From Negativicoccus massiliensis (GTDB taxonomy: Bacteria > Bacillota > Negativicutes > Veillonellales > Negativicoccaceae): 64,000 nucleotides of DNA. Below, in pieces: positions 28,210-63,120 of the stretch; the first letter of the stretch is position 1; every line of letters begins with the position of its first letter. Below the pieces are notes generated by a model. It was not told the DNA's origin. It worked only from the letters and a program-made list of their open reading frames with translations, and did not search any database. The DNA is taken from contig LT700188.1 of the NCBI GenBank assembly GCA_900155405.1, positions 744,001 to 808,000 on the forward strand, read 5' to 3'. The translations under genes and the position numbers were made by a program.

Positions 28210-28301
<92 letters not shown>

Positions 28302-28539: not shown

Positions 28540-28567
28540 TTGACATGTATTACCGCCTATGTATTCT
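28540..28567 (+). promoter_or_regulatory. Promoter of a candidate small RNA
   Basis: TTGACA (28540-28545), 16-base spacer, TATTCT (28562-28567). No open reading frame with a ribosome-binding site follows. The first bases (TTGACATGT) match the promoter at 63039-63067. Confidence 0.55.
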
Positions 28568-28573
28568 GAGCGT

Positions 28574-28640
28574 AGAAAAAGAGTTGCCCATGATAGGGCC
28601 CGGCATCTTAGCCGAACGCACATGGGAACTCTTTTTCTTT
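28574..28640 (+). ncRNA. Candidate hairpin small RNA
   Basis: Just after the promoter comes a long stem, AAAAAGAGTT-G-CCCATG (28576-28592) with CATGGG-AACTCTTTTT (28621-28636): 16 pairs with one bulge. It encloses a smaller hairpin, CGGC / GCCG. The 3' arm ends in a T tract, so the molecule would end as its own terminator at about 65 bases. The neighbours are tRNA-Ser and an opposing flavoprotein gene, so it is not a leader. 28378-28539 holds nothing recognisable. Confidence 0.45.
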
Positions 28641-28709
28641 GTCTATTCCTTTTTTTCATATTCGTAAAAACCGTAAGCTGACGACTTGATGAGCGAAGCA
28701 CATTTCGTT

Positions 28710-62645: not shown

Positions 62646-62709
62646 ATGACGGACTCTTTCCGTCGCACCGTAATGCAGCTTGATCGCATGACCATGCGAC
62701 AGACGACAA

Positions 62710-62733
62710 GCGAAATTAAAACATTTTCATATT
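62710..62733. repeat. 24-base direct repeat, left copy
   Basis: A perfect match to 63084-63107 (AT-rich, starts GCGAAATTAAAACATTTTC). The two copies bracket the small-RNA pair. Confidence 0.85.
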
Positions 62734-62741
62734 TCGCATTT

Positions 62742-62779
62742 GTCAATAAAATAAAAACAACACCGATGTGCTCGGTGTT
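62742..62779 (-). terminator. Terminator-type hairpin
   Basis: AACACCGA / TCGGTGTT with GTTTTTATTTT on the minus strand. It lies after the second small RNA and would stop read-through. Confidence 0.6.
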
Positions 62780-62789
62780 ACCGTCATCC

Positions 62790-62880
62790 ATAAAAAGGAA
62801 AAGCTGTTGATATGAAATATCGTTCGGTCACGGGATATACAACCCGTTCGTGCGAAGACACTCATATCAACAGCTTTTCT
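62790..62880 (-). ncRNA. Candidate hairpin small RNA, unit 2
   Basis: It begins a few bases after the promoter at 62887-62915. The ends form a perfect 17-pair stem (62862-62878 with 62799-62815), followed by CCTTTTTATG, so the molecule ends as its own terminator. Inside are nested pairs TTCG / CGAA and ACGGG / CCCGT. About 90 bases. A plus-strand frame over it (62812-63045) lacks a ribosome-binding site and is rejected. Confidence 0.5.
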
Positions 62881-62886
62881 GCCATT

Positions 62887-62915
62887 AGTGTAGAGAAAAG
62901 ATTGAAGAACGTCAA
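62887..62915 (-). promoter_or_regulatory. Promoter of small RNA unit 2
   Basis: TTGACG (62910-62915), 17-base spacer, TACACT (62887-62892). Followed by AATGGCAGAAA, which the unit-1 start also has. Confidence 0.65.
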
Positions 62916-62953
62916 GTTCGAAGAGCAACTGCGAAAATCAAACTTTTTTCTAT

Positions 62954-63032
62954 CAAAAGCACCGAGGGCTGGCTCAAACCGGCCGTCGGACAATCGTCCG
63001 CCGCATCCGATACCGAGCACCTCGGTGTTTCT
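62954..63032 (-). ncRNA. Candidate hairpin small RNA, unit 1
   Basis: It begins just after the promoter at 63039-63067. The outer stem is CACCGAGG / CCTCGGTG (63020-63027 with 62960-62967), followed by a short T tract. It encloses ACCGAG / CTCGGT and CGGAC / GTCCG. About 80 bases. Same layout as unit 2 though the stems differ in sequence. Confidence 0.45.
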
Positions 63033-63038
63033 GCCATC

Positions 63039-63067
63039 AGTTTAGAAGAAACGCCGAAACATGTCAA
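63039..63067 (-). promoter_or_regulatory. Promoter of small RNA unit 1
   Basis: TTGACA (63062-63067), 17-base spacer, TAAACT (63039-63044), then GATGGCAGAAA as in unit 2. Confidence 0.65.
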
Positions 63068-63083
63068 GGTCAAAAGAACAATC

Positions 63084-63107
63084 GCGAAATTAAAACATTT
63101 TCATATT
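63084..63107. repeat. 24-base direct repeat, right copy
   Basis: Identical to 62710-62733. It lies between the outer-membrane gene's terminator and the unit-1 promoter. Confidence 0.85.
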
Positions 63108-63120
63108 GTATTCGCGCAAC

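Follow-up and report, generated by a model that had tools for sequence, protein, structure and literature searches.

A predicted family of small hairpin-RNA genes antisense to the phage LPD3 domain in Negativicutes

Two hairpin units on the minus strand of a Negativicoccus massiliensis genome belong to a previously unlisted kind of small-RNA gene carried by phages of the Negativicutes and by their hosts. The pair lies in a stretch of 64,000 nucleotides (the window; assembly GCA_900155405.1, contig LT700188.1, positions 744,001 to 808,000). From sequence comparisons, this family appears to have its home on the strand opposite the LPD3 coding sequence, at its 3′ end, in Negativicutes prophages. 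The units share one architecture, their promoter codons are under selection, their stems covary, they co-occur with LPD3 and they recur as arrays in host genomes. That the units are RNA genes is highly probable. Regarding their role, we lean slightly towards the reading that the window pair represents stand-alone copies of a small-RNA gene that lies antisense to the LPD3 3′ end and would silence a polyvalent phage gene.

The unit pair in the window

Units A and B each consist of TTGAC(A/G), a 17-nt spacer and TA(A/C)ACT, followed by a long hairpin (Table 1), and their promoter and start regions share 72% identity over 47 nt (62876-62922 versus 63028-63074). A promoter scan recovered TTGACA-17-TAAACT for unit A (63067..63039, 10/12 matches) and TTGACG-17-TACACT for unit B (62915..62887, 9/12 matches). 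None of 200 dinucleotide shuffles was as stable as the hairpin of unit A (-43.0 kcal/mol, z -4.3) or that of unit B (-42.5 kcal/mol, z -8.3). The first-pass annotation had described two minus-strand promoter and hairpin units bracketed by perfect 24-base direct repeats, and the scan, the folding scores and the repeats all bore it out. The T-rich RNA end that it assigned to both units is present in unit B, where the T-run is CTTTTTAT, but is weak in unit A, whose tail is CTTTTGAT. The short hairpin downstream of unit B is either a collapsed unit or a plain terminator.

Table 1. Features of the unit pair (positions are those of the window)
Feature	Positions	Strand	Remarks
Unit A -35 element TTGACA	63062..63067	-	17 nt from the -10; same place relative to the peptide motif in ~30 relatives
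Unit A -10 element TAAACT	63039..63044	-	promoter scan
Unit A hairpin, 68 nt	62960..63027	-	predicted RNA start ~63032; weak T-run behind the hairpin
Unit B -35 element TTGACG	62910..62915	-	promoter scan
Unit B -10 element TACACT	62887..62892	-	promoter scan
Unit B hairpin, 82 nt	62798..62879	-	predicted RNA start ~62880; 19-bp outer stem, 18 perfect
Unit B T-run	62790-62797	-	directly after the hairpin
Short terminator-like hairpin	62756..62782	-	downstream of unit B; arms resemble the unit A stem base
Coding remnant ISLEETPKHVK	63036..63068	+	end of LPD3 junction; lies opposite the unit A promoter
Coding remnant ISVEKRLKNVK	62884..62916	+	lies opposite the unit B promoter
24-bp direct repeat, left copy	62710..62733	+	perfect match to the right copy
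24-bp direct repeat, right copy	63084..63107	+	perfect match to the left copy
Cassette, ~374 bp	62734..63107	.	missing at the orthologous site in a congeneric genome (G001:C3, ~30.2 kb)

The genes flanking the cassette are present in the congeneric genome G001 with 86-93% identity, while the DNA between the repeats is missing there and one diverged copy of the repeat region is left. The window pair is therefore a cassette that one species acquired or the other lost. Of the duplication or insertion first proposed, the block event stands. A local duplication followed by divergence does not, as simple duplication was ruled out by the different nearest relatives of the two units, which were WLKP-type phage units for unit A and a KYRSV-type unit of G003:C18 for unit B. 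A and B are distinct members of a large family.

The plus-strand remnants lie in different frames and contain stops. No intact LPD3 domain or gene was found at the window units, where the domain body is missing and the frame changes from one unit to the other, and a profile search detected no LPD3 domain in the window genome. When compared with the protein of a relative in this genome, the remnants gave short matches only (E 0.013 and 0.15), and their identity was backed by the DNA match of the window units to phage genes of G002 and G003. On this evidence, both units appear to be what is left of the 3′ end of an LPD3 domain encoded by phage 'polyvalent' genes. The initial statement that no reading frame explains the pair holds for a present-day gene, but it overlooked these remnants of a phage protein.

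The dead sense frames and the missing LPD3 body raise the question of whether the window copies are debris of a decayed prophage gene with no present function, which would be compatible with silencing by the family as a whole. The sister species without the cassette, window promoters weaker than those of the phage copies and the poor terminator of unit A fit such a history. On the other hand, unit B retains a perfect 18-bp stem together with its low folding z, and the comparison of unit A with a phage relative in G002 (G002b) revealed 5 compensatory, 3 one-sided and 17 unchanged pairs, with structures inferred from each pair. Furthermore, the window genome holds other intact stand-alone copies (at 211, 872 and, twice, 1090 kb, besides the window pair at 807 kb), and arrays without LPD3 bodies recur in several families. 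Altogether, we regard decay without function as possible but doubtful. The pair may be active or decaying; for unit A, the weak T-run and a weak model score suggest that it may be decaying.

Promoter selection at LPD3 junctions and covariation of the stems

When related genomes were searched at the DNA level, these units were recovered from G002 and G003, antisense within the frames of large prophage genes. Unit-bearing frames with LPD3 matches measured 3026 aa in G003, 2336 aa in G002 and 3068 aa in G001. These genes encode polyvalent proteins with LPD3, in one case also with PBECR5, and virion genes adjoin them. The units occupy the linker after the LPD3 domain. Read on the complementary strand, the 'promoter' encodes the peptide motif I[ST]I.[DE][ML]L..VK(D) and the hairpin the variable linker. 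Each LPD3 copy carries its own unit, whatever domain comes next, and the units lie inside intact LPD3 frames, on the opposite strand and overlapping the phage gene as a cis-encoded phage antisense RNA does. In the G003 prophage (L037/L038), the LPD3 gene is located among terminase-, portal- and ejection-like genes, and a second unit (L037 12393) lies behind a stretch with no obvious LPD3 match.

The junctions examined for selection were found by protein similarity alone and were thus not chosen for a promoter or a hairpin. At these ~30 junctions, the antisense strand presented 9-11 of 12 matches to TTGACA-17-TATAAT; the spacer was 17 nt in every case and the place constant. The Ile codon of the promoter region was ATA in 23/23 cases (6.3 expected), the Val codon GTC in 25/27 (5.4 expected) and the Thr/Ser codon ACT or AGT in 25/27 (5.7 expected), while the codon preceding Val ended in T in 22/29 (10.7 expected); some junctions are related, hence the independent events are fewer than these counts, but the effect is large. 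Similarly, synonymous resampling gave 130.4±3.1 matches to the -35 element versus 163 observed and 88.3±3.8 to the -10 element versus 135 observed, with 0/5000 resamplings as high in either case. A promoter that simply resulted from the peptide motif would follow the codon usage of the gene, and these codons depart from it. Selection thus acts on the antisense promoter in addition to the protein, and the unit has a promoter of its own.

The hairpins at the LPD3 junctions were more stable than 200 synonymous codon shuffles nearly everywhere (z -1.1 to -5.4, the weakest being that of G555). Among 62 units, for which a T-rich tail was a search requirement, the hairpin began 7.8±2.2 nt after the -10 element, measured 71±13 nt and was followed by a T-rich stretch; a T-run lies behind the hairpin in most units. 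Compensatory changes affected 17/17 consensus pairs in a set of 11 units, in which 86% of the cells pair versus 58% when shuffled, with a covariation score of 0.78 versus 0.28. For 53 distinct rows, in an alignment that was fitted to the covariance model, the score was 0.83 versus 0.22 in shuffled and 0.11-0.21 in slid alignments. The information per column amounted to 0.37 bits in the stem, 1.66 in the -35 and 1.45 in the -10 element. The family keeps the shape of the stem and not its sequence, in line with what the first-pass annotation had read from the window pair. Its small-RNA reading is supported in kind and forms part of a much larger finding. Compensatory changes also numbered 4 between the units of G005 and G008, despite stops in the G005 frame (structures inferred from each pair). 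The first stem interruption was on the 5′ side in 33 cases versus 9. At column 61 of alignment A6, an insert between the outer and inner stems, an unpaired G was present in 26 of the 32 units with a letter there, the rows coming from many loci, and it could be a recognition site.

Conservation of structure without sequence would also suit an element that acts as DNA, either a folded attC-like recombination site or a mobile palindrome able to insert into coding sequences like the Rickettsia palindromic elements. Copies inside and outside genes, the block insertion with 24-bp repeats and copy numbers that vary between close relatives agree with such an element. However, conservation of the unit is highest in a promoter whose 17-nt spacing is fixed and whose codons are selected, features that recombination does not require, the T-run is always on the same side, and the units are tied to one protein domain instead of being scattered over genes. 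Integron attC sites have conserved R/L boxes (GTTRRRY) and go with an integrase; among the aligned units, no stem ends were universally conserved. We consider a DNA-level element very improbable.

Stand-alone copies and distribution

Arrays of 2 to ~10 units without LPD3 bodies were found on chromosomes of several families, mostly in dead frames, each unit having its own promoter and an intact hairpin. They included five units in G003:C19 and three units between pyrE-like and plsX-like genes in G009. In the close relatives G686 and G687, ~ten units are flanked by DUF1292/yqgF-like genes on one side and an mltG-like gene on the other, and three of these units form a tandem run at ~117 bp; the gene names derive from translations and not from a database. 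A simple unit scan of 328 kb of chosen loci returned more than 50 predictions versus 4 in a codon-shuffled control. Among the stand-alone units, 37/46 had no open sense frame over 400 nt. Stand-alone and phage copies scored 9.85/12 versus 10.42/12 for the promoter and had hairpin z values of -4.4 versus -4.7, a comparison biased by the stand-alone set having been gathered in part through a promoter and hairpin search. At L093 (2500-5100) and L107, two close species carry a ~ten-unit array in which some units overlap phage-like peptides other than LPD3 and in which the conserved apical loop CCAGGGGGAATTGGACCCCGGCGG presents a G-C to A-U double change. A CRISPR direct repeat (RF01317; L100 5997-6024) lies near a unit array in G282.

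The covariance search of Negativicutes genomes that had been proposed at the outset was performed with a model built without the window units (R1). At E≤1e-3, R1 matched 30/379 Negativicutes genomes and 23/102 genera, and the LPD3 profile matched 26/380 genomes of the class. Among 299 evenly drawn Bacillota genomes, the 4 that matched R1 were all Negativicutes and no other member of the phylum gave a match; the LPD3 loci inspected in other Bacillota showed neither the junction motif nor a unit. In a search of 362 kb, R1 recovered unit B of the window (E 2.7e-4) and, weakly, unit A (E 0.07). One R1 match was discarded for overlapping an apparent tRNA gene (G001:C1:162.8k), and two weak ones are probable false positives (G000 499.8k and window 28540). 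The latter (28540-28643, plus strand, E 0.03) lies near a tRNA at 28210-28298 and is probably due to chance.

No Rfam family reached the gathering score for the units in the window or in 13 related loci, and at E≤5 only sub-threshold matches appeared, none of them relevant. Elsewhere in the window, a T-box leader (RF00230; 39180-39385, minus strand) scored above the gathering threshold. Viral contigs yielded 4 loci with protein profile A3 and nothing with profile A1 or two DNA patterns. Neither a single-protein query nor one array loop pattern produced a match, and tblastn against phage and plasmid records produced none either.

Proposed function and known systems

The position of the units, antisense within the gene of a virion-injected protein, suggests silencing in cis. 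In the mechanism we propose, a near-consensus sigma-70 promoter would start transcription beside the foot of a ~70-nt hairpin and a T-run terminator would end it, giving an RNA of ~75-85 nt. We infer that the lysogen produces this RNA and that it base-pairs with the complementary hairpin of the sense mRNA, probably through the loop first and with RNase III cleavage following. Pairing would keep the virion-injected polyvalent gene silent in the lysogen and could block related superinfecting phages. Chromosomal stand-alone copies, such as the window pair, would be antisense genes that were captured or left behind; they could work in trans against related phages, or decay. From what the sequences suggest, the chances that the RNA silences the overlapping phage gene are about even.

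One unit per LPD3 copy, irrespective of the next domain, and the 5′-side bias of the stem interruptions would also be expected if a protein binds the RNA. The hairpin RNA might thus bind and restrain the LPD3 domain or its neighbour in the manner of a type III toxin-antitoxin, with host copies neutralising incoming LPD3. The frequent G in the bulge and the conservation of shape but not sequence fit this proposal, as does LPD3 being a phage conflict-associated domain (PMC5512222). In type III systems, however, antitoxin RNA repeats lie directly upstream of the toxin gene in one operon, with a ToxN-like RNase as the partner protein, whereas the hairpin RNA is encoded within the phage gene on its other strand. 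There is no sign that LPD3 is a toxin or an RNase, and the LPD3 domains inspected outside the Negativicutes come without a unit. The AlphaFold model of LPD3, of modest confidence (mean pLDDT 69, pTM 0.72), had no convincing fold match (best E 0.25 with Foldseek and best Z 3.6 with VIA-align); a nuclease assignment was dropped as unproven, a CDI toxin chain at Z 3.2 being too weak. We find protein binding rather unlikely. LPD3, the home domain of the units (Pfam PF18798), has been described as a domain of unknown function in mosaic phage proteins (Iyer et al. 2017, PMC5512222), in an article whose text, when searched, mentions neither antisense RNA nor Negativicutes.

The proposed silencing by antisense hairpins has parallels outside phages. 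CopA and RNA-OUT are stem-loop RNAs of ~70-90 nt from plasmids and transposons that pair with a complementary stem-loop and whose stems drift freely; they control replication or transposase genes and, unlike the units, are not nested in a virion-protein domain. The lambda OOP RNA measures ~77 nt. Lambda OOP and P22 sar are smaller analogues, being short terminator-ended RNAs antisense to the phage gene that they repress (PMC5869508, PMC12197685). They differ in targeting regulators (cII, ant), in occurring once per phage and in forming neither chromosomal arrays nor a family that is nested inside a single protein domain and shows codon-level selection. By analogy, the best precedent for silencing would be STnc6030 of the Salmonella prophage BTP1, which is antisense to a DNA-injection gene and excludes superinfecting BTP1 (PMC7067206). 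Like the units, it is a prophage-encoded RNA antisense to late structural or DNA-injection genes; its exclusion is sequence-specific and works when the RNA is expressed alone, and point mutations in the target allow escape (PMC7067206). In contrast to the units, STnc6030 is a single case, measures ~500-786 nt and is not a hairpin gene associated with a protein domain; host arrays have not been reported for it.

The units constitute a class-wide small-RNA gene family with rare codon-level proof of selection on an antisense promoter, and they are missed by genome annotation because they are antisense inside protein-coding sequence. They tie one RNA to one phage domain of unknown function and offer a handle on how lysogens silence a virion-injected protein. 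Host arrays of such RNAs might, moreover, be maintained against phages. Whether the chromosomal arrays are a heritable host store of antisense RNAs that grows by capturing phage LPD3 antisense genes is a speculative proposal that we think unlikely; if true, they would be an RNA-based anti-phage memory. Most host copies had exact matches of only 14-22 nt to the few phages sampled, which we counted against antisense silencing. The best case for action in trans is a chromosomal stand-alone unit of G058 with a 35-nt exact match to a prophage unit of G045.
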